64,000 nt of DNA from Reichenbachiella agariperforans (GTDB lineage: Bacteria; Bacteroidota; Bacteroidia; Cytophagales; Cyclobacteriaceae), in assembly GCF_900142205.1 (NCBI RefSeq), contig NZ_FRAA01000001.1, positions 1,448,796 through 1,512,795 of the forward strand. Direction: 5' to 3'. The notes beneath the pieces were generated by a model. That model ran no database searches and had not been told where the DNA came from. It saw nothing but the letters and a program-made list of their open reading frames with translations. The position numbers were made by a program, and so were the translations under genes. Positions 1-45,477 of the stretch are shown in pieces. Numbering within the stretch: the first letter of the stretch is position 1; the number at the start of each line of letters is the position of its first letter.

Positions 1-336
1 TCCTCTCACATATAATTCGATGACTCGAGCCTTAAAAATGCTCAAGAGTTCGGTATCCACTTCTATAGTTACTCCTGTCAAATCAAAAGTATTGTCACTA
101 CCACTAAAATCGATCATAGCATATCTGCCTACACCATCCGGTTTCGTTTTCTTCACCACTTTCTCGGTCAGGTAATCCTTCATTTGATACACGCCAGGCT
201 GCATACTGACGATATTTCCATCCTGAGCTGCATATTTGGCTAATTCAGTGATGGAATGGACCTTTATTTCTGCTGCCTGTATTGCGCTGTGGCTCAACAG
301 TAATCCAATGATCCAGTAACCTATTTTTCTTTTCAT
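1..336 (-). CDS. Right-handed beta-helix (pectate-lyase-like) exported protein, C-terminus cut by window edge
   Basis: An open frame begins at an ATG at 336 on the minus strand and runs off the window at base 1 (about 112 residues visible). Residues 1-21 form a signal peptide (MKRKIGYWIIGLLLS, then a hydrophobic stretch ending near QAA). The mature part (VHSITELAKYAAQDG, PGVYQM, FDLTGVTIEV) resembles the start of the large beta-helix protein at 13713-16727 (SLTELQPYLEQ, PGDYTV, YDFTGVTIYI), so the two are probably paralogues. This type of N-terminus opens parallel beta-helix polysaccharide lyases and hydrolases (PL6-like or GH28-like). It lies 8 bases downstream of the RbsD/FucU-like lipoprotein and is probably in the same operon. 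The substrate cannot be told from the fragment. Confidence 0.75.
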   Translation of the reverse strand, partial: MKRKIGYWIIGLLLSHSAIQAAEIKVHSITELAKYAAQDGNIVSMQPGVYQMKDYLTEKVVKKTKPDGVGRYAMIDFSGSDNTFDLTGVTIEVDTELLSIFKARVIELYVRG

Positions 337-344
337 ATCTTTCG

Positions 345-890
345 TTATTCTGCTTTGCCCATGACACTTCGCAATTGCTTTTCTTTGTCCTCACTCCAAT
401 AGTCACAATCCAGATTGATAAAAACGGAGGTATAGGGGATGGTCATATTGGTTTTGAGAATCAATACCTTATACATCTCCGACGCACGATCCAATTGCTC
501 AATAATCTGTTCGTGTGACATCTCAGCAACTTCACTGCTACCCAATATCCTATTTAAATCCTCTTTGTAGCTCCCTACTCCAGGTGCATCTTGGTCGGTC
601 ACAAAAGCCAGCTCTTGATCGAACATAATTTTTGGCCTTACATGAGGACTTAATTCAATTTGCTGCAATAGGTAGGTCAAAATTTCTGTTTGGCTTTCCC
701 CTGTTACCAGCGTGGTGATCCCTTTCGAATTTTGTGAAGGATAAGCCGAATCGGCAACCACAATCCAATTGCGATGGCCCAACTCAGCAAGCTGAGTATC
801 AAATGCTGATTTCCAATCGTTTTGACATCCACAAAAAGTGATGATTATCAAGGCCAGCATCAGACCAATTTTCTTTCTTTCTCTATTCAT
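345..890 (-). CDS. RbsD/FucU-like lipoprotein (putative secreted sugar mutarotase)
   Basis: 181 residues. The N-terminus has a basic start, a hydrophobic stretch and a cysteine near residue 22 (ITFCGC), which suggests a lipoprotein, although the lipobox is not ideal. The segment LGHRNWIVVADSAYP recalls the GHGDEIVIADANFP-type motif of the RbsD/FucU family (pyranase or fucose mutarotase), and the tail IPYTSVFINLDCDYW also fits a known group of exported RbsD/FucU-like proteins. Usual family members are cytoplasmic, so an exported copy within a PUL is notable. If the assignment holds, it would interconvert sugar anomers released outside the cytoplasmic membrane. It sits between the broken GH116 gene and the partial beta-helix gene. 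Fold assignment is from motif memory only; the catalytic role is inference. Confidence 0.55.
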   Translation of the reverse strand: MNRERKKIGLMLALIIITFCGCQNDWKSAFDTQLAELGHRNWIVVADSAYPSQNSKGITTLVTGESQTEILTYLLQQIELSPHVRPKIMFDQELAFVTDQDAPGVGSYKEDLNRILGSSEVAEMSHEQIIEQLDRASEMYKVLILKTNMTIPYTSVFINLDCDYWSEDKEKQLRSVMGKAE

Positions 891-916
891 CAGCTTTCTA
901 AAATCCGTTGTATTGT

Positions 917-3562
917 TTATCTGATATCTAAAACTGCCTTTTCGCCCGCCTGAATTTTTAGTGGCTTTTCGAATGTCAATTGGGTCGCATCAGTCAAAGA
1001 GAAAGAGCTCAATAACAACGATCCATGAGCCACTGACAGCTCTACTGTAGAATCGGACTGTGTACATACGCCCCACGCACTGCCATTGGACCAAAACATA
1101 CTTCCTTCGAAAGGGGCAAAAGCCATCGACTGATCCACAGCAGAATATTGAAACCCTGATAATGCGACCACTGCCCCCCAACTTGCCATGGCGCGGGCAT
1201 AATTATGTCCGCATTCTGCCTCATTGAATGGGTTTCGTTTCAGACCATCATAGCGATCCCTGATATTTTTGATATTCAAAAGTCCATCTTCGGTTTGCCC
1301 TTCGTATAGCATCCCTACAGCCGCAGTGTATTCAAATCCTGTCATGGCTTCTGTGAAATAGGGGAAGGGGTGTTTCGGTCGATCGCCCGGATAGCTGGCC
1401 ATCACGAGGGATTTTTCATCTCCTAGCACAAAGGAACGCATGCTGTTGAAATCCGAATTGCTATCGTCTCGATAGTTGTATTTCATGATGCTCTGCAAGG
1501 TGGTCTTTACGTTTTGCTCATCGGTAAGGTAGCCGAGTCCACATATGTGTGCGAGATATTGCCCTACCAGTTGATCCACCAGACATCCTTCGCCTAGCTG
1601 GTAATCCGGATTGCCAAGATCCTTGGATTCTAACCCCTTGAGGAGCGATGGTGCTATGTCATCTATACTTTCTGGTGCTTCTATCAAATGGATATAGTAT
1701 TCGCCATTGAACAAGTTCTCATCGATCCATTTGCTGCCTTTTTCAAATAGTTTACGACAGGTTTTGGCAAATTTGACATCTCCTGTGTATCTGGCCATTT
1801 CTTCCGATGCTCGCAGTGCCCCCAGATACCAAATGCCCATTTGCGGGTTCGGTCCAAAATACTGCACATCCATCGTATTGTGCTGGCAGCCGTCCATCAC
1901 GCCATCTTTGTCGGCATCCCAGCCTCCTTCTATCCAGCAGTATTCCATGGCCTTTTTCACATTGGGCCAGAGTTTGAGCAATAGTTCATCGTCTCCACTC
2001 AACTGCCAATCCCGGTACATACGCATGATGCTGCCCATTTGACCATCTGCTGCCGTGCGATCAAAGTAAGTGGCTCGCTCCAATGGCAATCCCACTCGGA
2101 AATTCAACATACCCAAATCATCGGTGGCGTGTCCATACTCGACTTCTCGCATTGAACGAGACAGTCCGCTAAACAAGAACGCTGTAGCCTGCTCGTAATT
2201 CCAAACATGGGTACAAGATCCATGACAAATCCCGCCTACATTACTCGTGCCTTCCCATCCAAAAAATTTGCCGTCTGCTGTTCTAAAACAGGTCTGGGTC
2301 CGAAGCGTACTGCTGTTGTACAGGGCGGCTTCTTTGACCACATCTGGCAAATCACTATTCACAAAGGAATTGACGAATTGCAAAGACTTCCCTTCAAGTT
2401 CGGGGATTTGAGGGATCACTTTTTCAGCCACGTCCCAGGCATCAGCATACTGGGTTGCATAATAATTCGTCAACCTATTGTCTATACCATCGTCTAGTGG
2501 AGACCAACTCATACGGTTAGGAAAGTGCCAGGTGAGGTAAAAAGTAACCTCTCTACTGCTATTGGCAGGCACGGTGACCTCCACTGCCAGCGAGCCCATA
2601 GGCCTATCATCCTCATTGGGTGAGCGGCCTTCGAGCTGTCCATCGGCACTAAAATCATCCCAGTAGTCCAGTCGAGCATTGCTCTACTCGTCTTTGCTCC
2701 AAGAGGTCCGATAGGTGATCTTTTCGTCTACTGAGGTAGTCAAGGCCATCGTTCCCCAGGCATCATCGCCTTGGTCCACGCCCTCTGAGCGCATGTATAT
2801 TCCCTGTACCCCGTTGTCCTTGCGGAAATCGTTTTTATTATCTTTTGCGCCAGTAGCAGTCCAAAAGCCTCTCCCTTTCATTTCCTGATCCGACCCGTCC
2901 ATACCTATAAAATTGGGTATGTTGCCTGAAACAGAAGCCTTCACGGCTTGATCCGAGGGATTATTCAACTCATAAGTGAGCACCGCTATGGGTATTCCGC
3001 TGGCATCAGCATCTCCAGGGATGTAGGGATTAAATGCCTTTATTCTCACATCCAGAGGCATATCGCTGTCCGAAAGCAACACCTGTCCAAAGGGATAGGC
3101 CGCCTTGAAAGTGCAAGAATCGAAACGAGGAAAACCATGGTTGGGTGTATTGCTCCCAAAAGGGCCTTCGTATAAAGACACGTCCAGGGGTCCTTCGAGC
3201 GCACGAGTGGCACGCTGGCCATCGGCTGTCTGGGTGAATAACGCAAAAAATGGCCCTATGTATCCACGGTGCTCACTGGTAGGTATATAACCATTGGCTC
3301 CAGTGTTCATAATCGCCCAATCTCTCAAATCTCCCCGACCTCCCAGCGATACCGTACCCGTCCCTATACCACCAATGGGCATCGCAATTCTGGCGATATG
3401 GTATTGATCGTAGCTAGTCAATACTGGCCAATCTTCGGCAGGCATTCGCACCACTTCTTGGATCACTTTGTGAGTCTTCCCTTCGGTGTCTTTCACAGCC
3501 TGTGCCTGTATCTGTACAACCGCCAGAAGACTCAAAATGTACACCCCCAATTTCCTTTGCAT
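917..3562 (-). pseudogene. GH116-family (DUF608, GBA2-like) glycoside hydrolase interrupted by one in-frame TAG
   Basis: The frame starts at 3562 with a signal peptide (QRKLGVYILSLLAVVQIQAQA) and the GH116 N-terminal beta-sandwich (IARIAMPIGGIGTGTVSLGG, residues about 55-75). It stops at a TAG at codon 293 (bases 2684-2686). The same frame continues without another stop to 917 and encodes the rest of the family: the segment YWDDFSADGQL immediately after the stop, then the (alpha/alpha)6 barrel with GCQHNTMDVQYFGPNPQMG and RNPFNEAECG. One base change (TGG to TAG) would explain the break, since a Trp fits there. GH116 enzymes are retaining beta-glucosidases, beta-xylosidases or N-acetylglucosaminidases. 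Without readthrough the product is a 292-residue fragment lacking the catalytic barrel; the ATG at 2599 would start a protein without a signal peptide. A sequencing error is possible. Confidence 0.8.
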
Positions 3563-5141: not shown

Positions 5142-8100
5142 CTAATTCGTACTTTCTGCTCTGATCATTTTTCCATCCTTCCATTCTTCGACGCTTACTT
5201 TTATTTCTCCTTCTTCGGATTCCATATCAGAGATAAGCAATTTCTGCACGCGACCATCAGTCAGCGTCACAGTGAGTTCGTTTTCATTTTTGGCCTCTAC
5301 CGATTCGATCATCGATTCGCTTTCATACGGTTCTATAATCGTGAGGTATCTGGTTTGAGTGCCCATCGTTCTTACTGCCATGGATTTCAACCTTGCGCTT
5401 TCATCACCCAGAGGAAAGTCTCCTCCAATTTTTGCCTCAAATCGTTCAACTTCCATTCCACTCAAGTCCAAAGTGATGACCGCTGCTTCCTTGTTATTTT
5501 CAGCCTGTGCAGAAATGGAATTATCCATCGGCTCACCTGCTATTTTGATCGGTCCCCCATAGTAATCCTTACCCTCACTAGCTGGACGCAGTACATTTTC
5601 GTATTGTGCAGGTAGAGATGAAAGGAATACTTCAGTACCATCTCGCATTACCAGCTTGGCATCTCCCCAGAAAATGGTGTTGTTGCGGATCTGACCTGGT
5701 GTCTTGGTAGTCAGGATCAATTGTTTGCTTCCAGATACATCCAGCGATACCTCCTTGCTGCCCAGTATCCATGCTCCCGTGCTATCACTGAGTAGCTCCT
5801 GACCATCGGCACTGACTGTATACCACAGTTGTTTATTGACATAAAAACCTTCCGTAGACGTACCGATCATGATTTCTGCTTTGGGAGGCCAGGCCTTGAT
5901 CACGTCGATTTGGAGTGGGCCGTCTAGGCTATGTGGCAGGCGCACGCCTTCATTGTCACAACCTTCGCCCCAGCACATTTCGAACTTGGTACGGGAGACG
6001 CCCTCTACCTCGTACCAATTGCAGTCCGTGATGAATTGTCCACTACCTAATGGATCCGTATTCATCTGATTGGTATGCCTGACCAGCTCCACCTGATCTG
6101 CCTCGATAGCTCTAAAACCCTTGGCTTGAAACATCCAATCAAACTCGTGATCCTCTTCGCCTTTGAGATAATCGGCCAGTAGGATATAATCGTCCATTAC
6201 GACCATCGCTCTACGCTGCATAACTGGCTCAGTAAAACCAGTCACTTCAGAATAAGCTGGTGCATCATCTGGCACGGGGATCGACCTACCCTCCTCCCAT
6301 ACTTTCTCGGCAAAAGTCTGATCACTGTTGTAATGAATTCCTCCATAGGGTGCATAGCTCCATTTAGAATTCGTTTCTAAAGCGGTCGCCTGCATCATTT
6401 CTCCAGAGTGAAAGAGCAATCTTGCGTTCTTGACAGGCTGTTGCATTTTTTGATCCACAACCACCATGTTTTTGTTGAGTGATACCTGCTTCCAAAACTT
6501 GTAGAGGTAGCTACCATAGCCATACCAGTACATCAAAGTGCCATAAAAACTGCGACCGTAGCGACTCATATGCACCAGATTGGTCCGGTCGAAGTGGCCG
6601 TGATAGCCCCCATGCGAACCGTAGTGCAGTGCGGCCTGGATTTGCTCGGATTGCTCTCGGTCTTCGGTTTGGGAACGCAATTGCACAATCCCCATGTTGT
6701 CAGCATAGGCCGAAACGCTCATTTTCTCAGAACTCACATCTGGTAAATTGGGCAAGCCATAGAGCAGGTCTCTTTTATCCCCTCGGTTGATCACCGCTGC
6801 ATATTCAGGATCCCCATAGAGGTAGTAAGCCAACTCGTAAGACTTACCAGAGAGCTTGCCTTCTACCGCATCGTTGACTGCTAGTAGCACCCCGCGAAAA
6901 TCAGCAAAAGGAAGTGCAGCATCCCACATATCCTTGATCCCAACATGGTTTTTTTCGATCTTCCCCCACTTTTCGAACTCCATGCCCATGATGCCGCTTT
7001 CGCGTCGACTAGAGAGCAGGGAGAAGTGTTCGGTGGTACCAATCGGGAAGGTTCTATCTTTGAAATTGATACCCCAGGGCTCTAGTGCCAATGCTATTTC
7101 CGAAAACTCGGTCGCCACCCAGGTATTGTATCCAACGGCGCATTCGTACCACCAGCCGTCGCTCATGATGCCATGCTCCAAGTGCTTGTATATCCCTGTA
7201 GGGTTGGTCAGTAGCTGATCGATCAGATGCCAATCTTGTAGATTCAAAGCACAGTACATAGCTGCCGTGAGCTCGGCCACATTCCAGTTGCTAATAGCCC
7301 CTTTGGTGTTGCCTTTCAGGGTTTGAGTAGCGAAAAGTCTGAAAGTTTCTGCTGTAAGGCGCTTGTCTTCCTCTGTTACTTGAGGACTCGTCCTGATCAT
7401 GTCATACATTCGGGCTACCGACTGCCAAAATTTGCCTTCACCTACAAAAGAATTGCTTCCACCCACTAGAGTAGCAGGATATCCAGTTTGTGGATCGATC
7501 AAACGGCGCAAGAGTTTCAAGCATTTGGTCACGTAGGCTTCATTGCCAGTCAACTGATAAGCGATACCGCAATCGAGCGCACCATAGGCACTTGTGTTAA
7601 AAACGGAAACCCCAAGCGGTCTGTCATTTGTATCGGACAAATCAGCTCCAGTAGGTGCCTCCCATTTTTCGGCTTTACGTATGTACTCTTCTAAACCTTC
7701 TTTGGCCCAATCGTATTTTTCCGCTTTTTGCCTAACCTCTTCCCATCCTTGAGCTGTAAAGACAGCATTTGGGAATGGCACACTCACCGCGGTTTTGAAT
7801 GTCAAGGTAGCCTCTCCCTCTCCATTGGCAATAGCTTTGATGACTTGCGTTTCGCGGATGCCTTGTGGCAAATGATCTGGAACATCTACCGTAAGGATAC
7901 ATTTCTTCACTTCACCCGGCGCTAGCTGTAGTTCCGATGGCTCGATACTCGCCTGCATCGACTCCCACCCCATGGCCTCTATACGCATCTGGATACCCTG
8001 TGGACGATCGATAGTATTGCCTACTTCGAATTCGTACTGAACCTGAGCACCCGCATCGACAGACTTGCCCTGAATACCTGCCTCGAGGTAGGTGGTATAT

Positions 8101-25835: not shown

Positions 25836-26047
25836 AATAAATACAGCTTTACAGCCCGTAATTTCAGTCAAAAGCAAGATTTTGGCTATCACTCATCGTT
25901 CGAGACCGATAAATTATGTGTCAAAATCTCCAAAATGAAGGCATTTCTCTGATTGAGCAAGACAAATGAATTAGTATACGAAGCAAGACTGACATGCCAA
26001 GCTCCAAACACTTGTCCGCTTAGATAATTTACGCTTAAACTGACTAC

Positions 26048-29723: not shown

Positions 29724-29750
29724 GTTGTTTTCGCTTTTAAAGTTCCAAAA

Positions 29751-36200: not shown

Positions 36201-37444
36201 TTTTTGGGATCATGTCTAAACTGCTCAAACTCCCCTGACATTTCATCAAAATAATTGATACCTGCACCATCCGTACCTATCCACAATCGCCCCTTTAGGT
36301 CTTGCATGACAGCCTGTGCTATTCTAATATCAGAATCTTTACTCTTTTTGTAGAAGTTGTGCCCGAAAGCTCCTTTGGACAAATCCAACTTAACCATCCC
36401 TTCGTTGTATGTCGCAATCCAGAATATACCATCCTGATCTTGCAGCAACTTGGACGCTTGATTGTTGGGTATAGAGAAGGGATCACTAGAATCATGCTGC
36501 ATATGATGCAACAGTTTCCCTTGAGTATCCACTACATAGACTCCATGGTCGGAGGTAGCAATCCAGACGTTGTGATCTTGCCCTTGATAGATGTCATATA
36601 TCGCTATGCTTTCCTCTGCAATGACAGGGTTTTCAAAAACTTGATTTTGGTCCATCACAGCCAACTGCGACAGGTTATTGCCTACCCATACTTTGCCTCC
36701 CTTATCCACCATCAACGCCTTAGGCAAGTGATCTAAAGATTCTCCTCCATTGTTGGGGATGGTGATTCGTTGAAAATTGTCCTGATCAGGCCTGTATCTA
36801 TGCAAATGGCTTCCACCGGTCACCAACCAAACATTACCTTGTTCGTCAATATCTATACGAGAGACATCATTGTCATCCAAGGAGGTCTTGTCCGAAGGAT
36901 GGTTGAGATAGTGAGAAAAATGAAGTGCTTGTTCATCGCCTGAGTCAAAGCGATTCAATTCGGCCTTGCTCACTCCATTTTTAGTAGCCACCCAAATTTC
37001 ATTGTTTAACGGGTTGTAATCAATGTCATTGATGACGTCACGCGTATTGATGTGAAAAAGACTTTTGTCATATAAGTGTATCCGTCGAAAAGCCCCCTTT
37101 TCGTGTCGATATATGTTCAACCCATTCTTGGTTCCTACCCACAGGTTACCATATTTATCTTCTTCGAGAGCATAAACTCTGTTGTTGCTAATGGATGTGG
37201 AGTCGCCAATGATCGGACGAAAAACCTCAAAACCATACCCGTCATAGCGGTTGAGCCCGTCGATCGTCCCAAACCACAAAAAACCACGGCTATCCTGAAA
37301 CACTTCCAAACATGTACTACTCGACAATCCCTGCGGTGTAGAGTAATTCTCAAATTTGAGATTGGAAAATTGGGGTTGTGCCCATGCCAAACTACAACTC
37401 AACAGCAACCCTACGACCAAATGACACTTTCTATTTGCTTTCAT
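33278..37444 (-). CDS. Hybrid two-component system sensor/regulator (one-protein HTCS)
   Basis: 1388 residues. Signal peptide (VVGLLLSCSLAWAQ). Residues about 25-720 form two seven-bladed Reg_prop beta-propellers with repeated DRxGxxWxGT-like units (DSRGFLWFGTIDGLNRYDG, KYGNLWVGTKNGLNIY). A Y_Y_Y domain follows (about 735-800), a membrane segment (about 810-832, YTIYILLISLATWMLF), HisKA with SHEFRTP (phospho-acceptor His about 859), HATPase (GTGIGLNFTKSLVEQH), a receiver domain with SDVMMPEMDGF (Asp about 1183) and an AraC-type HTH at the end (MGVSRSHFYRKVNSLTG). Such proteins sense a periplasmic oligosaccharide and activate the adjacent PUL. It lies between the PUL and the fucose operon on the same strand, so it may control both. 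Confidence 0.95.
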   Translation of the reverse strand: MKANRKCHLVVGLLLSCSLAWAQPQFSNLKFENYSTPQGLSSSTCLEVFQDSRGFLWFGTIDGLNRYDGYGFEVFRPIIGDSTSISNNRVYALEEDKYGNLWVGTKNGLNIYRHEKGAFRRIHLYDKSLFHINTRDVINDIDYNPLNNEIWVATKNGVSKAELNRFDSGDEQALHFSHYLNHPSDKTSLDDNDVSRIDIDEQGNVWLVTGGSHLHRYRPDQDNFQRITIPNNGGESLDHLPKALMVDKGGKVWVGNNLSQLAVMDQNQVFENPVIAEESIAIYDIYQGQDHNVWIATSDHGVYVVDTQGKLLHHMQHDSSDPFSIPNNQASKLLQDQDGIFWIATYNEGMVKLDLSKGAFGHNFYKKSKDSDIRIAQAVMQDLKGRLWIGTDGAGINYFDEMSGEFEQFRHDPKNPNSLSSDKVLYLEKCYDGDIWVCTLDGGLNKFDPETKRYVHYKHDQSDSTSIAQNSVWCAVEDQKHRLWAGTQEEGLNVLDPRTGSFVQFEHTPYDSTSILGDYVFSLYIDSHERLLVGTSRGMCWADISGDLSEGLVFNKVDEPNVTGILINDIVEDHLGDIWVGSDLGLHRLSAALNLKKTYSTEDGIPNNLVIGVEEDEQKQLWLITKSGMSCFDFETESFKNYNVSDGLQGMEYQSKSIARLKDGRILAGGINGFNLFDPRNIAQDTLQVLPILIDFKILNHSIHAGEELNGRVILEHALDQSKEIVLKHNEGYITLSFVALHMHNPDRVKYAYKLHGADQSFVQAGPTRMANYSGLQPGSYRFEVKASLNGDWSTAASTVLWLEVLPPPWKTWWAYTIYILLISLATWMLFKYYTKMVNEERERELDHMKLQFFMNVSHEFRTPLTLILNPVDKIISSFNDPEIVKNSAFVIQRSARKLLNLVNQLLDFRKMDLGKAPLDPIKGDIVPFIKDITKLFEDLAREKEIEMTFSSTIDGMFIWFDPDKIEKVLSNLLSNALKFTPKGGKVEVIVDHKQDVGGTLFGTRKLGESVEIKVKDSGIGLKKEQLSAVFDRFFHIDNTNSGTGIGLNFTKSLVEQHDGVITVESDYGQGSCFTVNLPLESKQLQDALKGNQEVRRTIKDFDMNSIKSLEYEISISDMNVLDSDETADTSGYQTILIVEDNKELRVHLKNELRHQFKIKEAANGQEGLEKAKKFYPDIVISDVMMPEMDGFEMCRNIKTNTDTCHIPVILLTARSLEEDRIEGYEIGADAYLPKPFNVNVLRARIKNLLESKKRLREKFVSQTGIMASSELTTNSLDEKFLDDVTKVILEHVSDSDFGLEDVLTEMGVSRSHFYRKVNSLTGQNPSNFIRTIRLKHAAELLKKRTGSIKEIAFMSGFNSTAYFSKTFRELFGMTPNEFASKSDDASA

Positions 37445-37545: not shown

Positions 37546-37580
37546 GATGAAGTCATCCTGAAACACAGCATGACTTCATC
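37546..37580 (-). terminator. Hairpin after lldD, probable end of the fucose operon
   Basis: GATGAAGTCAT (37546-37556) pairs perfectly over 11 bases with ATGACTTCATC (37570-37580) around a 13-base loop. The arm overlaps the last codons of the lactate dehydrogenase gene. Downstream on the minus strand comes a T-rich tract (ATTTATTATTATT) rather than a pure T run. It could end or attenuate transcription before the regulator gene. Confidence 0.5.
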
Positions 37581-38727
37581 TCACCTTAAAATTAGGAAAA
37601 TCCTCGACTCGTTCACAACAAATTTGCTCCATTACTTGCAGCAACTGTGTTTTGAGCATTCCTATGATATGGTCTCCTCCTTGGCTACCCAGCGCAGCTA
37701 CGCTATACATAAAGCTCCTGCCCATGAAAGTAAACTCCGCTCCACTGGCCAATGTCCTTGCTACGTCTGGACCTGATCGAAGACCACTATCCATCATGAC
37801 CTTGATCTGACCTTTGTATTTCTCTGCGATACGAGTCATCGGCACGATACTCGACTGCCCTGCGTCCAACTGTCTACCTCCGTGATTGGAGACGATGATC
37901 CCATCCAATCCCAACTTGATAGCCTTCTCAGTATCTTCTTCGCTGGCAACTCCTTTCAATACGATCTTTCCTTTCCACTTGTCACGTATGGCTGCTATTT
38001 TATCCTCGTTTAGCCTACCCGAAAACGTTTGATCCATGAATTTACCGAGTTGCTTCATGTTTAGATTCTTGGGCATATAGGGACGAAGTGTCTCAAAATT
38101 TGGCTGACCGTTGATCAAAGTTCTCAATGCCCACTCTGGCCTCCCCATGATCTGTAGCATGTTGTTCACAGTCATACTTGGCGGCATGGCCAGCCCGTTG
38201 CGAATGTCTCTGGGACGAAAACCAAAAGTAGGTACATCGGACAGCAATACTAATACTGGACAACCGGCTGCATCTGCACGTTTGAGAATATCGTCTCTCA
38301 CCTCATCCTTGGCTGGATGATAGAGCTGAAACCACGCCCGCCCCTCGGTCAGTTCGCTGGCCTTTTCGATACTCATGGTAGTGACAGTACTGAGAATAAA
38401 CGGCACATTGTGCCGAAAAGCCGCCTTGGCTAAGATCTCAGGAGCCTTGGGCCACATCAAGCCCTGCAAGCCCACTGGAGCGATCCCAAACGGCGCATCG
38501 TAGGTATGCCCAAATAGTTCGGTAGACATATCCGAATGCGTGTGCTTGGTCAAGTACTGGGGGATCAATTCCACATCTCGAATCTCCTTGGTATTCCTCA
38601 CCAAATTCACATCCTCGTTGCATCCTCCATCGAGGTATTCAAAAGCAAATCGAGGCACTTTTTTCTTCGCTCTTTTGATCAAATCGTCTATCGACGGGTA
38701 ACTGGAGTTATATGCCCACTTGCTCAT
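37576..38727 (-). CDS. lldD: FMN-dependent L-lactate dehydrogenase (alpha-hydroxy-acid oxidase family)
   Basis: 383 residues, a full-length member of the family. It begins with YPSIDDLIKRAKKKVPRFAFEYLDGG, has FGIAPVGLQGLMWPKAPE for flavin binding and VSNHGGRQLDAGQ, whose His is the catalytic base. MMDSGLRSGPDVARTLASGA and FMGRSFMYSVAALG complete the FMN site. It oxidises L-lactate to pyruvate. In this operon L-lactate is the expected product of 2,4-diketo-3-deoxy-L-fuconate cleavage, so it completes fucose breakdown to two pyruvates. Its start overlaps the stop of the mutarotase gene by four bases. Other 2-hydroxy acids remain possible substrates. Confidence 0.88.
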   Translation of the reverse strand: MSKWAYNSSYPSIDDLIKRAKKKVPRFAFEYLDGGCNEDVNLVRNTKEIRDVELIPQYLTKHTHSDMSTELFGHTYDAPFGIAPVGLQGLMWPKAPEILAKAAFRHNVPFILSTVTTMSIEKASELTEGRAWFQLYHPAKDEVRDDILKRADAAGCPVLVLLSDVPTFGFRPRDIRNGLAMPPSMTVNNMLQIMGRPEWALRTLINGQPNFETLRPYMPKNLNMKQLGKFMDQTFSGRLNEDKIAAIRDKWKGKIVLKGVASEEDTEKAIKLGLDGIIVSNHGGRQLDAGQSSIVPMTRIAEKYKGQIKVMMDSGLRSGPDVARTLASGAEFTFMGRSFMYSVAALGSQGGDHIIGMLKTQLLQVMEQICCERVEDFPNFKVR

Positions 38728-39053
38728 AGTTCAAATATTTTGTTCATTACTACCCATTTTTCTCCCTTAGCGGCAAAGGGCAATCGCTTTTGGTATTGAT
38801 CCATCAGTTCTTCCCATTCTTGCACTTTTGGATTGTTCTGATCCAAGGCATTCTTCTTTTCGAACGAAAAATCATCCCTTGCCTCCACAGTCATGACCAG
38901 TCGATCTCCCACATGATAAATTTCCATCCGCTCGACACCGGAATCTATGATGCTTTTCTGCACCTCTGGCCACACAGCCTGATGATGCTCTTTGTAAGCC
39001 TGGATCAATGAAGGATCATCCTTCACATCTAAAGTGAGTATATATTTTTTCAT
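38724..39053 (-). CDS. L-rhamnose/L-fucose mutarotase family protein (RhaM-like)
   Basis: 109 residues, the usual family length. KKYILTLDVKDDPSLIQAYKEHHQAVWPEV carries the HH pair (about 23-24) that corresponds to the catalytic His region of RhaM, and GVERMEIYHVGDRLVMTVEA matches the dimeric alpha-beta barrel fold (split motif read over two parts). It would speed interconversion of sugar anomers; in this operon the sugar is most likely L-fucose. Stop and start overlap with the lactate dehydrogenase gene. It is distinct from the exported RbsD/FucU-like protein at 345-890. Confidence 0.88.
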   Translation of the reverse strand: MKKYILTLDVKDDPSLIQAYKEHHQAVWPEVQKSIIDSGVERMEIYHVGDRLVMTVEARDDFSFEKKNALDQNNPKVQEWEELMDQYQKRLPFAAKGEKWVVMNKIFEL

Positions 39054-39136: not shown

Positions 39137-40435
39137 TCAAATTTTCCCTTTCATCACACGCATGCCATAGCTGGCGATAAACAGGAAGCACAACAAGGGC
39201 AGTACGAAAGAAAAATTGACTTCTGGAACACCGAGAATCTCTATATCCGAATACCCTGCTCCTCCCAAATCCAATATCATCCCTTGTAGGGTAGGCATCA
39301 AGGCCCCTCCCACTATCGCCATCACCAAACCTGCTGCGCCAATCTTGGATTCGTCCTCACTCAAGCCTTCCAAGGCAATACCGTATATCGTCGGAAACAT
39401 CAGAGACATACAAAACGAAACCATCACCAAACAATACAGCCCAATCATACCTTGGATAAAAATGGTCCCCAAGACAAATACAATAGCAAGAGCCGAAAGC
39501 AATGTGAGCAATTTGCCCGAATTGATATACCTCAACAGAAAGGTACAAATAAAACGTCCCGAGAAGAACAGCACGAAAGCCGCAAACTGATAACTGCCTG
39601 CCGTGACACCATCCACTCCGATCGATTCGGCATACTGGTAGATGTAGGTCCAACACATGATCTGTACACCTACATAAAAAGCCTGAGCCAACACACCCTG
39701 TGCGTAGTGTGCCCTTTGGACCAATGTCTTGATGATCTGCCAAGTACTCAGGCTATCTTCTTCATCTTTGCTCTCTGGCATTTTGCTAATGACAATCAGT
39801 ACAAATACAGCTATCACCACCAAACCTAGCGCCACGTATGGATCACGTATGACCATCAAGTCAGACTGTCGGATCGTCGCTTTGGCACTCTCTGACAGCC
39901 CACCAAAGTTGACGTCATCGGACTGAAGTTTGGCTAGCACGAAATTTTGCGCCACTAACAATCCACCAATCAAGCCCACTGGATTGAAAGCCTGAGCCAG
40001 GTTCAACCGACGTGTGGCGGTCTCCTTGCTTCCCATAGATAGGATGTAGGGATTGGCGGTGGTTTCCAAAAAAGCCAGTCCAAAAGTCAATACATAGAGT
40101 CCCATCAAAAAGAAACCAAACTGCTGGGTAACGGCAGCCGGATAAAACAACAAGGCTCCCGACGCATACAACCCCAGACCGATCAATACGCCTGTTTTGT
40201 AGGAGTACTTGCGGATGAACATAGATGCAGGCAAAGCCATGGTAAAATAACCACCGTAAAAAGCCAACTGTACCAGCGAGGCTTGAAAATTATTCAATTC
40301 CAATACCTTTTTAAAGGCCGACACCATCGGGTCGGTCACCGCATTGGCAAAACCCCAAAGGGCAAATAGTGAGGTGATTAAAACGAAAGGTAACAATACC
40401 TTACGTGACACCACTTTTTCATTCGTCTTCATCAT
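39137..40435 (-). CDS. fucP: L-fucose:H+ symporter, FucP-type MFS permease
   Basis: 432 residues with about 12 predicted membrane segments. FALWGFANAVTDPMVSAFKK and LVQLAFYGGYFTMALPASM are the FucP-family start; LAFLETTANPYILSMGSKE and RRLNLAQAFNPVGLIGG are the signature middle; CMSLMFPTIYGIALEGL near the end is also family-typical. It brings free sugar across the inner membrane. The gene is 57 bases after the fucose dehydrogenase gene. Some FucP-type proteins carry other hexoses, but the gene context strongly favours L-fucose. Confidence 0.9.
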   Translation of the reverse strand: MMKTNEKVVSRKVLLPFVLITSLFALWGFANAVTDPMVSAFKKVLELNNFQASLVQLAFYGGYFTMALPASMFIRKYSYKTGVLIGLGLYASGALLFYPAAVTQQFGFFLMGLYVLTFGLAFLETTANPYILSMGSKETATRRLNLAQAFNPVGLIGGLLVAQNFVLAKLQSDDVNFGGLSESAKATIRQSDLMVIRDPYVALGLVVIAVFVLIVISKMPESKDEEDSLSTWQIIKTLVQRAHYAQGVLAQAFYVGVQIMCWTYIYQYAESIGVDGVTAGSYQFAAFVLFFSGRFICTFLLRYINSGKLLTLLSALAIVFVLGTIFIQGMIGLYCLVMVSFCMSLMFPTIYGIALEGLSEDESKIGAAGLVMAIVGGALMPTLQGMILDLGGAGYSDIEILGVPEVNFSFVLPLLCFLFIASYGMRVMKGKI

Positions 40436-40492
40436 GCTTTTTTGCTTTATAAAAAAATGCTAATCTCTGCATTTTCAACTTTATCTTTTGAC

Positions 40493-41275
40493 TCAGGTAA
40501 CTGATCGGTCAAAATGTACATAACCACCATCTACAAACAGCCACTGACCCGTAGTATGAGCACTTCGCTCTGAGAGTAAAAATACCGTCATTGCAGCTAT
40601 TTCTTCTGCTTCGGTCATCCTTTTTCCTAATGGTATGTTGCTTACAATGTTCTTCAATTTCTCCTCTCGGTTTTCGAATGTGTTTAACCAAGTCTCATAG
40701 AGTGGGGTCATTACCTCTGCAGGAATCACAGCGTTGACCCTCACATCGTAGGGAGCCAGTTCTACCGCCCACTCTCTAGTCAGTGCGAGTTGAGCACCTT
40801 TGCTGGCGGCATATCCAGATGTACCTCCTTGACCTGTTACAGCCGTTTTGGAACTTACATTCACTACCGACCCTTTGTGTTCTTTGAGCTGTGGCAGTGC
40901 GTAGTGCACCATATCATAATAGTGCATCAAATTGGTCATGACCGATTGACGAAACCGTGCCGGGTCACCCTCTTCTAAGCCAGCACCATCATTGACTCCT
41001 GCATTGTTGACCACACCATCGATGCGACCGAGTGTAGCGACGGTTTCCTCCACTACACGCTGGCAGACCTCTGCTTCGCCCAATTCTGCAATGATATTGA
41101 GGCATTGACCTCCCGCAGCTTTTATCTTCTTTTCTATCGCTTCGCCTGCAGCGACGGATCGCCCGACTACCACAGGTATAGCGCCTTCGGCTGCCAGCTC
41201 TAGCGTAATCGCCTCGCCGATCCCTTTGGCTCCACCCGTCACGATGAAAACTTTATTTTTTAGTTTTAAATCCAT
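40493..41275 (-). CDS. SDR-family L-fucose dehydrogenase
   Basis: 260 residues. NAD(P)-binding TGGAKGIGEAITLELA near the N-terminus, NNAGVND, the catalytic Ser in NVSSKT and Tyr/Lys in GYAASKGAQLALTREWA, and the C-terminal TGQWLFVDGGYVHFD. It resembles bacterial and mammalian L-fucose dehydrogenases (HSD17B14-like). The reaction would be L-fucose to L-fucono-lactone. It lies between the lactonase and permease genes. Related enzymes also oxidise L-galactose and D-arabinose. Function is inferred from operon logic plus family. Confidence 0.82.
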   Translation of the reverse strand: MDLKLKNKVFIVTGGAKGIGEAITLELAAEGAIPVVVGRSVAAGEAIEKKIKAAGGQCLNIIAELGEAEVCQRVVEETVATLGRIDGVVNNAGVNDGAGLEEGDPARFRQSVMTNLMHYYDMVHYALPQLKEHKGSVVNVSSKTAVTGQGGTSGYAASKGAQLALTREWAVELAPYDVRVNAVIPAEVMTPLYETWLNTFENREEKLKNIVSNIPLGKRMTEAEEIAAMTVFLLSERSAHTTGQWLFVDGGYVHFDRSVT

Positions 41276-41302
41276 GTTTTTCTTGTATTGAGTACTGCGT
41301 AA

Positions 41303-42136
41303 TTAGTATTGAGATAGGCTGTAGAATTTAGCAGCCGTGCCTCCCATAATATGCCCCTGTTCTGTATCTGAGAGTTGGGAGATATGGGACTGGAGTAAGT
41401 CGTATATGCCCGAATAGCTCCCTGCCAGCAGACATACAGGCCAATCCGAACCGTACATCAAACGCTCTGGCCCAAAATGCTCCAGACAAAAATCGATGTA
41501 AGGAGTAAAGTCCTCCCTTTTCCAATTTTTCCAATCAGCTTCAGTCACCAGACCTGATAGTTTGACTGTCACATGCTTTCTTTCAGCGATGGCCTTCATG
41601 TATTTGGCCCAGTGATCAAAAGATGCCTCTTTGATCTGAGGCTTGGCGATATGATCGACCACCAGCGGCATCTCTGGCAGTTGATCGATGAATTGCAGCG
41701 TCTCTTCCAGCTGTCCCTGATGCACCAACACATCGTAAGTCAAGCCAAAATCCGCCAGCTTCTTCACTCCCGCCATGAAGGCCAGATCCGTCATAAAATC
41801 ATCCGGTTCAGCTTGCAAAATATGTCTTACGCCTTTGAAAACCACTTGTTCGGTATAACGCTCCAAGTCTGCAGACAATTGATCCGATCTCAAATCAACC
41901 CAACCCACTACACCTCGAATAAAGTCATGCTTATTGGCTAGAGACAAAAGGAAATCTGTCTCCGCCAATGATTGATCTGCTTGTACGGCTACACATCCAT
42001 CTATCCCCTTGTCCTCCAGAAGAGGCTGCAAATCCTCGGGCAAAAAATCCCGCTGAATCACAGCCATTTCTTCGGTGATCCAGGCATCCCTCAGCGGATC
42101 AAACTGCCAAAAGTGCTGGTGTGCATCGAGTCTCAT
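41303..42136 (-). CDS. Amidohydrolase-family L-fucono-lactonase
   Basis: 277 residues. Amidohydrolase_2 family: the start RLDAHQHFW supplies the HxH metal motif (His5, His7); HILQAEPDDFM, PLVVDHIAKP and MYGSDWPVCLL carry the remaining His and Asp ligands. The family includes the lactonases of fucose and rhamnose oxidation pathways. It would hydrolyse L-fucono-1,5-lactone to L-fuconate. The start codon overlaps the stop of the FAH gene (ATGA). Confidence 0.85.
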   Translation of the reverse strand: MRLDAHQHFWQFDPLRDAWITEEMAVIQRDFLPEDLQPLLEDKGIDGCVAVQADQSLAETDFLLSLANKHDFIRGVVGWVDLRSDQLSADLERYTEQVVFKGVRHILQAEPDDFMTDLAFMAGVKKLADFGLTYDVLVHQGQLEETLQFIDQLPEMPLVVDHIAKPQIKEASFDHWAKYMKAIAERKHVTVKLSGLVTEADWKNWKREDFTPYIDFCLEHFGPERLMYGSDWPVCLLAGSYSGIYDLLQSHISQLSDTEQGHIMGGTAAKFYSLSQY

Positions 42137-42984
42137 GCGTCTGGGTGTGCTACAGCTGTTTGCTTGGATGTACCCAGACCATCGATACCCAATTCCATCA
42201 CATCTCCCGGTTTCAAATAGACTGGAGGATCAAATCCCAACCCTACGCCTGCAGGTGTACCCGTGGAGATCACATCCCCTGGTTCCAAAGTCATAAACTC
42301 TGACAAGTAGCTGATCACAGTCGGAATATCAAATACAAAATCTGACGTATATCCATCCTGAATCTTCTCGCCGTTGAGCTTGAGCCATAGGTTGAGGTTG
42401 TGTGGATCAGCGACCTCATCAGTACTCACAATATAGGGTCCGAGTGGCGCGAATGTATCGCAACTCTTGCCTTTCACCCATTGACCACCACGCTCGAGCT
42501 GGTAAGCTCTTTCGCTCACGTCATTGTGTAGGGCATAGCCGCCAACATAATCCATAGCCTCTTCTTTGCTCACATAACTAGCGGTCTTGCCGATCACCAC
42601 AGCCAATTCGACTTCCCAATCGCTCTTTTCGCTTCCTTTTGGGATCACCACATTGTCATTAGGACCACATAGACTGGATGTTGCCTTGAAGAAAATCACA
42701 GGCTCTTTCGGTACTTCCATACCACTTTCTTCTGCATGTTTCCTGTAGTTCAATCCGATGCATATGATCTTGCCTGGGCGATAGATCGGTGCATCAAACT
42801 CAGGGGTCTCTATCACTTCCAGCTGACCTTTTTCGATCAACTCCTCTACCTTGCTAAAAGCATCCGATGACTCGAAAAAATCCCTGTCGATATCTTGGAC
42901 GTGCCCTGCCAAACTATAGTGTGTATCACCAGCACTTACACCAGGCCATACTTTCCCATCTTTTCTATATCTAAATAATTTCAT
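42133..42984 (-). CDS. FAH-family 2,4-diketo-3-deoxy-L-fuconate hydrolase
   Basis: 283 residues, the usual length for cytosolic FAH-family hydrolases. IICIGLNYRKHAEESGMEVP and PVIFFKATSSLCGPND form the substrate pocket; DWEVELAVVIGKTA carries the acidic metal ligands; GYALHNDVSERAYQLERGGQW and GDVISTGTPAGVG are family hallmarks. In the Xanthomonas-type pathway this family splits 2,4-diketo-3-deoxy-L-fuconate to pyruvate and L-lactate, which matches the neighbouring dehydrogenase and lactate dehydrogenase. An alternative ureidoglycolate-lyase label would not fit the context. Confidence 0.85.
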   Translation of the reverse strand: MKLFRYRKDGKVWPGVSAGDTHYSLAGHVQDIDRDFFESSDAFSKVEELIEKGQLEVIETPEFDAPIYRPGKIICIGLNYRKHAEESGMEVPKEPVIFFKATSSLCGPNDNVVIPKGSEKSDWEVELAVVIGKTASYVSKEEAMDYVGGYALHNDVSERAYQLERGGQWVKGKSCDTFAPLGPYIVSTDEVADPHNLNLWLKLNGEKIQDGYTSDFVFDIPTVISYLSEFMTLEPGDVISTGTPAGVGLGFDPPVYLKPGDVMELGIDGLGTSKQTAVAHPDA

Positions 42985-43096
42985 GATTCTTCGTATTTTT
43001 TGATTGTAAAAATTCTCTTATCTCATCAACAGTCGCTCGCTGTTTCTCAAAACATCTCTTTGCATGTGACTAGTCAAACTAAAAAGGCCGCTCGGA

Positions 43097-43873
43097 TCAA
43101 TTGCCATTGAGCGTCACAAAACCTCCATCTATCGGAAAATCTGACCCTGTAATAAAAGACGCCTCGTCTGAGCATAGATACAGTACCAAGTCACCGATTT
43201 CTTGTGGTTTACCCATTCGACCAATAGGCTGTGTTTGTGATAATTTTTCGAACATTTCCTCTTCCTTTCCTGGGTAATTTTTGGATATAAACCCATCCAC
43301 AAATGGCGTATGGACCCGTGCAGGTGATATACTATTGCATCGAACCTGTTGTCCTAGGTAATCTTTGGCAATCGACAAGGTCATGGTATGCACAGCCCCT
43401 TTGCTCATCGAATAAGCAAAGCGATCATTGAGGCCTACATGTGCACCAATCGAAGACAGGTTGACGATAGCTCCCCCATCTCTCATCTTTGCAACACCCG
43501 TTTGCAAGCAGTGGTACACGCCTTTGACATTGACAGAGTAGACCCTATCCAAATCTTCCGCAGTTGTATTCTCTACATTGCCTACATGCGCGATACCCGC
43601 ATTGTTGACCAGTATATCAAGGTTTTCTTCGCCTACCGCTCGATCAAATGCCTGCTGCACACTCTCCAACTTGGACACATCACATGCAATGGTTTTAGCG
43701 TCTCCACCAGCTGCATTGATCTCATCGACGACCAACTGACCTCCCTCTTCGTTGAGCTCGAGGATGGATACCTTCGCGCCATTTCCGGCCAACGATAGTG
43801 AAATCGCTCTACCGATACCGCTACCACCACCCGTGACAATGGCACGTTTCCCTGTTAAATCAAATTTTTTCAT
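43097..43873 (-). CDS. SDR-family 2-keto-3-deoxy-L-fuconate dehydrogenase
   Basis: 258 residues from the ATG at 43873, chosen because it overlaps the UxaA stop as ATGA and begins with MKKFDLTGKRAIVTGG; an in-frame ATG at 43894 inside the upstream gene is less likely. GGGSGIGRAISLSLA binds NAD, LVNNAGIAHVG and NLSSIGAHVG surround the catalytic Ser, and AYSMSKGAVHTMTLSIA gives Tyr and Lys. C-terminus ITGSDFPIDGGFVTLNGN. It would oxidise the C4 hydroxyl of 2-keto-3-deoxy-L-fuconate. A 112-base gap with no gene separates it from the hydrolase. Confidence 0.85.
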   Translation of the reverse strand: MKKFDLTGKRAIVTGGGSGIGRAISLSLAGNGAKVSILELNEEGGQLVVDEINAAGGDAKTIACDVSKLESVQQAFDRAVGEENLDILVNNAGIAHVGNVENTTAEDLDRVYSVNVKGVYHCLQTGVAKMRDGGAIVNLSSIGAHVGLNDRFAYSMSKGAVHTMTLSIAKDYLGQQVRCNSISPARVHTPFVDGFISKNYPGKEEEMFEKLSQTQPIGRMGKPQEIGDLVLYLCSDEASFITGSDFPIDGGFVTLNGN

Positions 43874-45477
43874 AGTGACACTCCTCTTTTCCAAAGTATA
43901 AAATCGTTTTGTTCTAAGTCCATCGCTTTGGTTTTCTCACCACTAGCAACGGCTATTATTTTTTCTAGAATCTCTTCTCCTACTTGTTCTATGTTTTTTT
44001 CACCACGAGTAATTGGCCCTGCATCCAAATCTATGATATCACTCATGCGCTCGCTAAGGCTCGTATTGCTAGATATCTTGATTACTGAAGCCAATGGGTT
44101 GCCTGTCGGTGTACCCAAACCGGTAGTGAAGAGGATAATACTCGCACCCGATCCTGCCAGTCCTGTGGTAGATTCCACATCGTTGCCTGGTGTACATAGT
44201 AGATTGAGTCCTGGACGGGTGACTGGCTCTGTATAATCCAACACATCGCTCACGGGTGCTCGTCCTCCTTTTTTCGCCGCACCGGCAGATTTGATCGCGT
44301 CAGTAATCAAACCATCTTTGATATTGCCAGGCGAAGGGTTCATGTCAAAACCTGAACCAGCCGCTCTGGCTTGTGCTTCGTAGGCCCGCTGAATATCCAC
44401 GAACTTCTCTGCCACACGATCCGCTGTACATCGATCAATGATGTCTTGCTCTACGCCGTTCAACTCTGGAAATTCACTCAATACCGTAGAAGCCCCCAGC
44501 GCCACTAACAAGTCTGATGCATAGCCTACCGCAGGATTGGCAGAAATACCCGAAAACCCATCCGAACCGCCACATTCCAGTCCTACGACCAGTTTGCTCA
44601 GTGGCGCTGGCTTGCGCTCGATCTGATTGGCTTCTTTGAGTTGCTCGATCGTATCAGCAATGGCCTTTTTGATCAACTTCTCTTCCGATTGGATGACCTG
44701 CTGCTCCAAATAGATCACTGGCTTGCTTGCCTGCGGATATAGCTCCTCTTGAATCTCTTGAAACCACTGCACCTGCGCATGTTGGCAACCCAGACTCAGG
44801 ACTGTAGCTCCCGCGACATTCGGGTGCTGTAGATAACCTGCTAGCAAACGCAAGAGCGTCTCTGCGTCACCACGTGTACCTCCACACCCTCCGTCATGAT
44901 AGAGAAATTTGATGCCGTCTACATTTTCAAACACTCGATTTCGCAATGGCATCTCTTGTTCCATCACCCCACCGATTAATTCATGAGCATACTGCAAATA
45001 CTCGTTGGGCTTTTTGTAGCCCAACGAGGACTTCAAGGTCTCCTCAATGGCTTTAAGGTTGCGGTTTTCGCAGAAGACCAAAGGGATGAAAAGCCAGTAG
45101 TTGGCCGTCCCCACCTTCCCATCTGGTCGATGGTAGCCCTGAAATGTCCTCTCCTCCCATGCCGAGACATCGGGAGCTTGCCATTCGTATTTTTTTCTAT
45201 TGTCGAGTGAGATGGGATCAGCAAAGTGCGTCACATTCTCTATCGTAATCATCGTACCGATGGGCAGGTCTTCGTTCGCGCTACCTACAGGCACCCCATA
45301 CATGTATATCTTATCGCCCTTGCTCAAGCACTCGGTCAAAAATTTGTGCTTCTGTGGCACTGGCTGAGGCACATCAATAGCCACACCATCCGCCTCTACC
45401 ACTCCTGGTTTCAAATCCTGTAGTGCGACCAGCACATTGTCTCTGCCATCAATTCTCAGAAATCTCTCGTTCGTCAT
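43870..45477 (-). CDS. UxaA/altronate-dehydratase-family L-fuconate dehydratase
   Basis: 535 residues. An N-terminal SAF domain (about 1-95, GDKIYMYGVPVGSANEDLPIG) is followed by the UxaA catalytic region (about 105-530): RPDGKVGTANYWLFIPLVFC, YHDGGCGGTRGDAE, VVGLECGGSDGFSGISANPA and GNDVESTTGLAGSGAS. Cys and His residues in these motifs bind the active-site metal. The family dehydrates aldonates such as altronate and galactarate; here L-fuconate to 2-keto-3-deoxy-L-fuconate is the expected step, as in the Campylobacter fucose cluster, whereas Xanthomonas uses an enolase-superfamily enzyme. It is first in the operon. Confidence 0.83.
   Translation of the reverse strand: MTNERFLRIDGRDNVLVALQDLKPGVVEADGVAIDVPQPVPQKHKFLTECLSKGDKIYMYGVPVGSANEDLPIGTMITIENVTHFADPISLDNRKKYEWQAPDVSAWEERTFQGYHRPDGKVGTANYWLFIPLVFCENRNLKAIEETLKSSLGYKKPNEYLQYAHELIGGVMEQEMPLRNRVFENVDGIKFLYHDGGCGGTRGDAETLLRLLAGYLQHPNVAGATVLSLGCQHAQVQWFQEIQEELYPQASKPVIYLEQQVIQSEEKLIKKAIADTIEQLKEANQIERKPAPLSKLVVGLECGGSDGFSGISANPAVGYASDLLVALGASTVLSEFPELNGVEQDIIDRCTADRVAEKFVDIQRAYEAQARAAGSGFDMNPSPGNIKDGLITDAIKSAGAAKKGGRAPVSDVLDYTEPVTRPGLNLLCTPGNDVESTTGLAGSGASIILFTTGLGTPTGNPLASVIKISSNTSLSERMSDIIDLDAGPITRGEKNIEQVGEEILEKIIAVASGEKTKAMDLEQNDFILWKRGVSL

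Follow-up and report, generated by a model that had tools for sequence, protein, structure and literature searches.

Gene content and extent of the locus

The 64,000-nucleotide stretch of the Reichenbachiella agariperforans genome considered here (the window; C8:1448796-1512795 of a 5.03-Mb genome in 21 contigs) contains at positions 1-45477 a polysaccharide utilization locus (PUL) joined to an operon for the oxidation of L-fucose, all on the minus strand. This arrangement had been proposed in an earlier annotation made from the letters alone (below, the sequence-only reading), and it is borne out by the listing of open reading frames (ORFs) and their Pfam and NCBIfam matches. The ORF-to-ORF distances in this part are between −25 and 380 bp (n=24). 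SusC, SusD and a hybrid two-component regulator (HTCS) are found at 27924-37444 and the operon adjoins the HTCS at 37576-45477, and together with the carbohydrate-active enzymes listed in Table 1 they form a single run.

It should be noted that the window covers only part of the locus. Positions 1-45477 make up the front half of a locus of ca 94 kb (C8:1400526-1494272; 93,747 bp from the GH97 gene to the end of the operon), of which about 48 kb lie beyond the first base of the window. Going outward from there, the Pfam matches give an FdlA-like beta-helix protein, GH43-CBM35, GH39, GH95, a sulfatase and a GH43 match below the cut-off. Next come two beta-helix proteins, a beta-helix/fucolectin/ricin protein and a ricin-domain protein whose match to PF14099 ("Polysacc_lyase") is just under the cut-off (29.0 vs 29.9 bits), followed by a protein of 1235 aa matching an alginate-lyase family, one more sulfatase, the other full FdlA-like protein and another beta-helix protein. 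After these stand an alpha/beta hydrolase, u642 and u910 (642 and 910 aa, neither with a Pfam match), a sulfatase and a SASA esterase. The outermost part, past ca 4 kb that hold two small plus-strand genes, consists of GH29, a GH141-like beta-helix protein (26.1 vs a cut-off of 27), GH30 and GH97.

Among the 48 ORFs of the locus that were scanned with Pfam, SusC and SusD occur once each. The combination that marks a PUL for fucose-containing sulfated polysaccharides (FCSP) in PMC6298971, GH29/GH95 with sulfatases and the beta-xylosidase families GH39/GH43, is present, these glycosidase genes being located outside the window. A scan for promoters and terminators gave results at chance level (19 promoters vs 23.5 expected, 15 terminators vs 11.0 expected).

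FdlA-like lyases

The genome encodes seven proteins similar to FdlA, a crystallised fucoidan lyase, and all of them are in the locus (genome search; BLASTP within the locus and alignment). Both beta-helix proteins listed in the sequence-only reading are of this type. The large one, FdlA1, aligns at residues 20-477 with residues 17-461 of the FdlA chain (2e-122), that is, over the full length of the beta-helix, and the other is u462, cut by the window edge. The other six paralogues are 29-57% identical to FdlA1, and FdlA2, the other full-length copy, which lies outside the window, has a match to FdlA at 5e-177.

According to PMC9410043, FdlA cuts the bond between mannose and glucuronate (Man-GlcA) in sulfated fucoglucuronomannan to give sulfated unsaturated GlcA/Fuc/Man trisaccharides, leaves polysaccharides without sulfated fucose uncleaved, and was without a CAZy family in 2022. 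The residues H176, F179, E236, R240, Y242 and R272 are kept in 7/7 paralogues, K141 in 6/7, D137 in 5/7 and N243 in 4/7, and the catalytic set given in that paper (K141, R240, Y242 and H176) is complete in six of the seven.

An F5/8C domain is present in 3/7 paralogues and matches fucolectins in both copies searched. All three F5/8C proteins contain the pattern H-X(26 or 27)-R-X-D/N-X4-R, a loose one that also matched an unrelated stretch of the PF14099 protein and that we take to be the fucose motif of F-type lectins. The FdlA-like paralogue bhelix463 (L003:8943-10334), of which copies with 69-80% identity are found in four relatives, lacks the presumed base Lys141 as well as Asp137 and keeps the other site residues; it may have a different activity. 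A further FdlA-like match, at G548:C1:5844991-5846343, contains one in-frame stop.

Toroid lyase-like proteins

The three toroid proteins that had been described as heparinase-like are LyA, LyB and a PL40-like protein. For LyA and LyB, assignment as ordinary heparinases or to a curated Pfam or NCBIfam family was ruled out: NCBIfam gives no match for either, the Pfam matches are weak and partial (PF05426 at E <= 0.1 in 25/27 sequences, best 3e-7), and phmmer finds no PDB match for either at E <= 0.1. The AlphaFold model of LyA (pLDDT 84, pTM 0.82) has the toroid plus beta-sheet fold of PL17 and PL39, which for LyB is assigned by homology only. The PL17/PL39 alginate lyases (8bdd, 9irq, 6jp4) are the nearest folds to the model (Foldseek, E 2e-16 to 5e-15), and PL17 provides the only convincing matches of the LyA-family profile, themselves weak (2.8e-9, 38 bits). 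LyA differs from these enzymes, however, by an identity of only ca 12% in the structural alignment, by an extra N-terminal part of ca 290 residues and by its gene company.

Relatives of LyA were found at 19 loci in one scan of genome contigs. N448, E496, Y501, D587, H677 and H679 do not vary in an alignment of 27 sequences, and W449 hardly does. The PL40 set consists of residues of these types in this order; the match is one of motif and order, with the H-x-H of LyA a few columns off that of PL40 in a four-sequence alignment. The PL40 ulvan lyase Uly1040 uses N245/W246, Y305, D358, H485 and H487 (PMC12915356, PDB 9vtk). The PL40-like protein of the window matches it at 2e-29 and keeps N-W, WPESPGY (with the E and Y of the set), FGD and the base His; it is, on the other hand, a far relative whose match falls into two stretches (204-486 and 495-869) and which has Ser in place of H487. 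By motif, u910 keeps the whole set including the second His. A PL40-like match in one relative (G358:C6:178000-180687) contains one in-frame stop.

The same set recurs in u642 (N240-W241, E289, Y293, D349 and H440-x-H442 in 4/4 aligned sequences, three of which have a faint heparinase match, best E 0.005). Judged from residue conservation, and for LyA also from the predicted fold, we take LyA, LyB, the PL40-like protein, u910 and u642 to be putative lyases, and LyA and LyB appear to form an unclassified family of polysaccharide-cutting lyases. Several lyases of the locus have Pfam matches to tails of the type IX secretion system (T9SS); for ten lyase-like and beta-helix proteins NCBIfam returned T9SS-tail models and, in the case of the GH28 protein, models below their cut-offs.

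Fucose operon and its junction with the PUL

Non-phosphorylating oxidation of L-fucose proceeds over fuconolactone, fuconate, 2-keto-3-deoxyfuconate and 2,4-diketo-3-deoxyfuconate to pyruvate and L-lactate, the latter being converted to pyruvate. The operon contains one contiguous candidate each for the dehydrogenase, the lactonase, the dehydratase, the second dehydrogenase and the diketo-hydrolase, and by homology these enzymes fit the route. The earlier statement that every step from fucose to pyruvate is encoded holds in the sense of one candidate gene per step; only the fucose permease and L-fucose dehydrogenase exceed specific curated NCBIfam cut-offs, while the lactonase, the diketo-hydrolase, the dehydratase and the FMN (lactate) dehydrogenase match below theirs.

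The junction of operon, regulator and SusCD is kept in three of the six relatives compared. In Marinoscillum furvescens, of the 17 genes that run from GH31 to the dehydratase in the window, 16 stand in identical order (FdlA1 and the genes below it not counted), namely GH31-DUF6250-S1b-S1c-PL40-SGBP-SusD-SusC-HTCS-operon, where SGBP denotes the probable surface glycan-binding protein; GH28 and FdlA are inserted there, and FucP was not found in the 60 kb examined. Colinearity with the sibling genome G376 extends over the locus, apart from a few insertions and a few gaps, at mostly 90-100% identity, the exceptions being SGBP (71%), LyB (75%), a short SASA match only and an extra sulfatase-like gene. 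The order operon-HTCS-SusC-SusD-SGBP-PL40-S1c is also kept in G430.

Sulfatases, glycosidases and other genes

Six of the 21 above-cut-off sulfatases of the genome belong to the locus, three of them in the window as the sequence-only reading had it, and the motif C-x-P-S/T-R is present in 6/6, in agreement with the sulfate deduced in that reading. The best matches of S1a are of mixed specificity, with rhamnosidase/sulfatase, GlcNAc-6-sulfatase and galactose-6-sulfatase among them. A second region for sulfated polysaccharides, C14:111775-243718 (132 kb), holds 13/21 of these sulfatases.

The GH28, GH31 and GH116 genes reported earlier are all present, GH116 with the reservation that it consists of two ORFs (see below). 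The proposal of alpha-xylose as the GH31 target agrees with the solved-structure matches of this protein, the four best of seven being alpha-xylosidases.

The RbsD/FucU-like protein, which has a 96% identical copy in G376, has an export-signal-like start that ends by eye in a Cys and was not flagged by the lipobox pattern. Known mutarotases of this kind are cytosolic, and export of a fucose mutarotase would be out of the ordinary. Beside the far end of the locus, on the opposite strand (C8:1396441-1400107, plus), lie a ROK kinase, a weak GH88-like protein and a sugar transporter, a group with a possible role in the handling of unsaturated uronide or mannose.

Table 1. Genes of the PUL and the fucose operon in the window (SDR, short-chain dehydrogenase/reductase; FAH, fumarylacetoacetate hydrolase).
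Feature	Position	Strand	Basis and remarks
C-terminal part of 462-aa FdlA-like beta-helix protein (u462)	1..336	-	31% to FdlA1; equivalents of K141, H176, Y242, R240 kept; whole gene C8:1447743-1449131
RbsD/FucU-like protein, N-terminal export-signal-like stretch (by eye)	345..890	-	PF05025, 28.4 vs cut-off 25
GH116 glycosidase, in-frame TAG at 2684-2686	917..3562	-	Pfam
GH28, polygalacturonase-type beta-helix	3582..5138	-	PF00295 9e-15; NCBIfam models below cut-off
LyB, unclassified (alpha/alpha)-toroid lyase-like protein	5142..8663	-	55% identity to LyA
LyA, unclassified (alpha/alpha)-toroid lyase-like protein	8660..12154	-	candidate catalytic set N448 W449 E496 Y501 D587 H677 H679
S1 sulfatase S1a	12167..13705	-	Pfam; CMPSR motif
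FdlA1, fucoidan (fucoglucuronomannan) lyase homologue + PA14 + F5/8C fucolectin-like + ricin-B + T9SS tail	13713..16727	-	homology to FdlA
GH31, alpha-xylosidase-like, PA14 match	16740..19385	-	Pfam; solved-structure matches
DUF6250 protein	19407..20174	-	PF19763 6.6e-61
S1 sulfatase S1b	20187..21662	-	Pfam; CSPSR motif
S1 sulfatase S1c	21659..23137	-	Pfam; CTPSR motif
PL40-like lyase, 915 aa, second metal-site His -> Ser	23145..25892	-	match to Uly1040
TIG-domain protein, probable SGBP	26187..27887	-	Pfam/NCBIfam
SusD	27924..29723	-	Pfam/NCBIfam
SusC (TonB-dependent transporter)	29751..32897	-	Pfam/NCBIfam
HTCS	33278..37444	-	Pfam/NCBIfam
FMN-dependent (L-lactate) dehydrogenase	37576..38727	-	below specific NCBIfam cut-off
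RhaM-type methylpentose mutarotase	38724..39053	-	Pfam/NCBIfam
L-fucose:H+ symporter FucP	39137..40435	-	TIGR00885, 537 vs cut-off 280 bits
L-fucose dehydrogenase	40493..41275	-	NF052481, 416 vs cut-off 300 bits
L-fuconolactonase candidate	41303..42136	-	283 vs cut-off 400 bits
FAH-fold 2,4-diketo-3-deoxyfuconate hydrolase candidate	42133..42984	-	340 vs cut-off 500 bits
Second SDR, candidate 2-keto-3-deoxyfuconate dehydrogenase	43097..43894	-	broad SDR subfamily model only, among 25 models shown
UxaA/GarD-type dehydratase, candidate fuconate dehydratase	43870..45477	-	271 vs cut-off 731 bits

Distribution among relatives

We now consider how the two lyase families are distributed, using 245 genomes of the family, the genome itself included; a class-wide sample (1/295 for LyA and for FdlA, in both cases the genome itself) was too sparse for an association. 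LyA is found in 7/245 genomes (in G473 as a 32% partial match only) and an FdlA-like protein in 8/245. FdlA is present in 7/7 genomes with LyA vs 1/238 of the others (Fisher p = 8e-13 by genome; p = 3e-6 by genus, with 4/84 for LyA and 5/84 for FdlA), values that ignore relatedness, shared habitat and the origin of the queries in one of the sampled genomes. A PL40 relative at >=53% identity occurs in the same seven LyA genomes (the G358 copy with an in-frame stop), and remote PL40 relatives are found in 15 others.

Among 17 LyA genomes searched, the genome itself included, 12 have FdlA, and those without it are one Bacteroidota metagenome-assembled genome, Flavobacterium soyae and three Chitinophaga. 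LyA thus also occurs apart from FdlA. Records with LyA come from Formosa, Polaribacter, Marinoscillum, Flammeovirga and Carboxylicivirga, and in the Planctomycetota-Verrucomicrobiota-Chlamydiota (PVC) group from Pontiellaceae, Puniceicoccaceae and Pelagicoccus. The relatives in Chitinophaga (L021, L022, L023) and Flavobacterium soyae (L020) are 50-52% identical to LyA, and each of the three in Chitinophaga immediately follows an HTCS-SusC-SusD set and precedes GH97. Since these copies are in genomes without FdlA, the LyA family would appear to have another substrate context as well.

Sequence identities were also examined for signs of horizontal transfer. The copies of GH39 and GH43-CBM35 in Marinoscillum, Polaribacter and Formosa show 71-87% identity to those of the locus, compared with 51-57% for PheT in those of the genomes that were tested. 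However, aconitase, the sole second yardstick, has 77% identity to its counterparts in both Polaribacter and Carboxylicivirga and gave no match in the other two genomes, and for this reason no claim of transfer is made.

Proposed target and alternatives

Taken together, the gene content points to a Bacteroidota PUL that is probably directed at a sulfated, fucose-branched and xylose-bearing polymer with a backbone of glucuronate and mannose, that is, a fucoglucuronomannan of the ascophyllan or sulfated fucoglucuronomannan type. It is the homology to FdlA that argues for this backbone, and it sharpens the list of candidate polymers given in the sequence-only reading, in which ascophyllan comes close. 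The uronic acid deduced there agrees with the FdlA-like and PL40-like proteins, and the fucose with the fucose dehydrogenase, the permease, the fucolectin-type domain and GH95 and GH29 just outside the window.

In the mechanism that we propose, the backbone would be cleaved beside glucuronate, by beta-elimination, at the cell surface; the lyases acting there would be the toroid lyases and the FdlA-like proteins, of which three have fucolectin-like and ricin domains. The fragments would be imported by SusC/SusD. The sulfatases would strip sulfate, GH95 and GH29 would release fucose, and GH31, GH39 and GH43 would release xylose. FucP would then bring fucose into the cytoplasm, where the adjoining operon would oxidise it to pyruvate and L-lactate, and the lactate further to pyruvate. 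The regulator encoded between the two halves, the HTCS, is probably the sensor of these fragments.

A number of observations weigh against this target. The "alkaline pocket" of FdlA is not kept in FdlA1, where H279 is replaced by W and Y322 has no aligned Tyr (as read off the alignment), and because of this loss the specificity of FdlA1 may differ from that of FdlA; FdlA2 keeps both residues. No alpha-mannosidase family is found among the Pfam matches of the locus ORFs, although such an enzyme would be unneeded if cutting by the lyases is complete. There is no confident GH88/GH105 in the locus either, the sole nearby one being weak and on the opposite strand (C8:1397417-1398649). The nearest solved chain of S1a is named "Alpha-L-rhamnosidase/sulfatase (GH78)" (6hr5, 5e-56) and presumably comes from an ulvan system. 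GH116 is split by its in-frame TAG into two ORFs of one frame; the gene is uninterrupted in G376, Marinoscillum and Carboxylicivirga, with tryptophan at the position of the TAG, which would be a recent nonsense mutation or a sequencing error. In the stretches examined of Carboxylicivirga and G358 no match to the fucose operon was found, though much of the enzyme set is kept, and in those of Polaribacter Hel1_85, where the same is true of the enzyme set, the only operon match is one SDR at 30%. Finally, ulvan is the substrate of the PL40 enzymes that have been characterised to date (PMC12915356).

Another option, in line with the sequence-only reading, is a fucoglucuronan free of mannose, or else xylose-rich ascophyllan in the strict sense, degraded by FdlA-like enzymes of shifted specificity. 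The seven FdlA paralogues have indeed diverged, with W, H, W, H, T, L and K at the position of pocket residue H279, and the 1235-aa protein with the alginate-lyase match together with five toroid-type proteins suggests more than one uronate linkage. In ascophyllan, side chains of fucose and xylose are attached to a backbone of glucuronate (PMC9604890), and xylosidase-type GH31, GH39 and GH43 are all in the locus. The characterised relative FdlA acts, however, on a Man-GlcA backbone (PMC9410043), and we regard this option as rather unlikely. The locus could also consist of two adjoining PULs for two fucoidans (16740-37444 and the remainder) that share one SusCD and one fucose operon. Namely, the first of these modules and the one with LyB, GH116, GH39 and GH95 are on different contigs in Marinoscillum, where the second has its own SusC/SusD further along, and the order is rearranged in G430 and G358. 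Considering that both modules are colinear in the sibling genome and that the locus has a single SusC and a single SusD, a division of this kind seems improbable.

As to the source of the polymer, a diatom FCSP rather than a brown-algal one was considered. The FCSP PULs of North Sea isolates are discussed with possible diatom sources (PMC6298971), and a near relative of the locus is present in Polaribacter Hel1_85, but the known substrate of FdlA comes from a brown alga (PMC9410043), which makes a diatom source very unlikely. We have also considered a PUL for ulvan with an operon for L-rhamnose oxidation, a scenario to which we attach hardly any weight. The PL40 match, in a family of ulvan lyases, and the nearest solved chain of S1a would speak for it, and so would the operon, whose enzymes resemble the rhamnose pathway (RhaM mutarotase) and whose FAH protein has 2,4-didehydro-3-deoxy-L-rhamnonate hydrolase as its best NCBIfam match, below the cut-off. 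Ulvan was nevertheless rejected as the target, since fucose dehydrogenase and FucP are above their cut-offs, fucosidase families and fucolectin-like domains are present, and no rhamnosidase family is among the Pfam matches of the 48 ORFs.

Returning to fucoglucuronomannan as the target, it is quite possible, though we put it forward tentatively, that the locus is a native and complete system for uronate-backbone fucoidans. It would combine an FdlA family expanded to seven with the unclassified LyA/LyB family, which would regularly accompany FdlA in marine lineages. The two families would be shared by Bacteroidota and the PVC group (Verrucomicrobiota, Kiritimatiellota), and fucose oxidation would be wired to the same locus.

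Comparison with known systems

Fucoglucuronomannan and fucoglucuronan are partial structures of the fucoidan of Saccharina latissima (PMC7344474), and the slow degradation of fucoidan is described as adding to marine carbon storage (PMC12786026). Among the titles and opening lines of abstracts in the literature listings, no fucoglucuronomannan PUL and no ascophyllan lyase was found, and nothing on such a PUL came up for Marinoscillum and fucoidan or for the combination GH95/GH39/GH116. In this literature one structurally studied lyase and no native PUL are described for the uronate-backbone fucoidans. The present locus gives the FdlA-type enzymes a genomic home and names their regular partners, and LyA, LyB, FdlA1, FdlA2 and u642 make up a short list of candidate enzymes for the preparation of defined fucoglucuronomannan oligosaccharides.

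The designation of the system as undescribed in the sequence-only reading was too strong, as FCSP PULs with such a mix of glycosidases (PMC6298971) have been published and so has a PUL in which PL40 and fucosidases adjoin fucose genes (PMC8072126). The former, from North Sea Flavobacteriia, with xylofucoglucuronans as a suggested target, share GH95/GH29, GH43, GH39, GH31, GH97, sulfatases and SusCD with the present locus, whereas the available text on them does not name PL40 or GH116 and does not mention FdlA-type lyases or a fucose oxidation operon. The latter belongs to Maribacter dokdonensis 62-1 and is called an "ulvan and fucoidan" PUL. It combines two PL40 with sulfatases, GH28, GH29, GH95, GH97 and GH141, and a fucose importer, fuconolactonase and fuconate dehydratase lie downstream. 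Compared by description only, it differs in having PL33_2 and GH117, and the available text mentions neither FdlA-like nor LyA-type lyases. The glucuronomannan cluster of marine flavobacteria (PMC9723552, PMC6298971) likewise has a polymer of glucuronate and mannose as its target, in this case from diatoms (PMC9723552), but it is rich in GH92, which is absent from the Pfam matches of our locus.

The closest enzymatic parallel is FdlA/FdlB of Flavobacterium sp. SA-0082 (PMC9410043), which corresponds to the catalytic domain of FdlA1 and to its six paralogues, the presumed acid/base residues being kept in both full-length copies. Two copies are described there as compared with seven here, the long copies of this locus carry PA14, fucolectin-like, ricin and T9SS domains, and the pocket residues of FdlA1 differ. 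We conclude that this is a real and well-supported FCSP PUL in which the FdlA paralogues in their native locus and LyA/LyB are new, and that it is this lyase set that sets it apart from the described ones.

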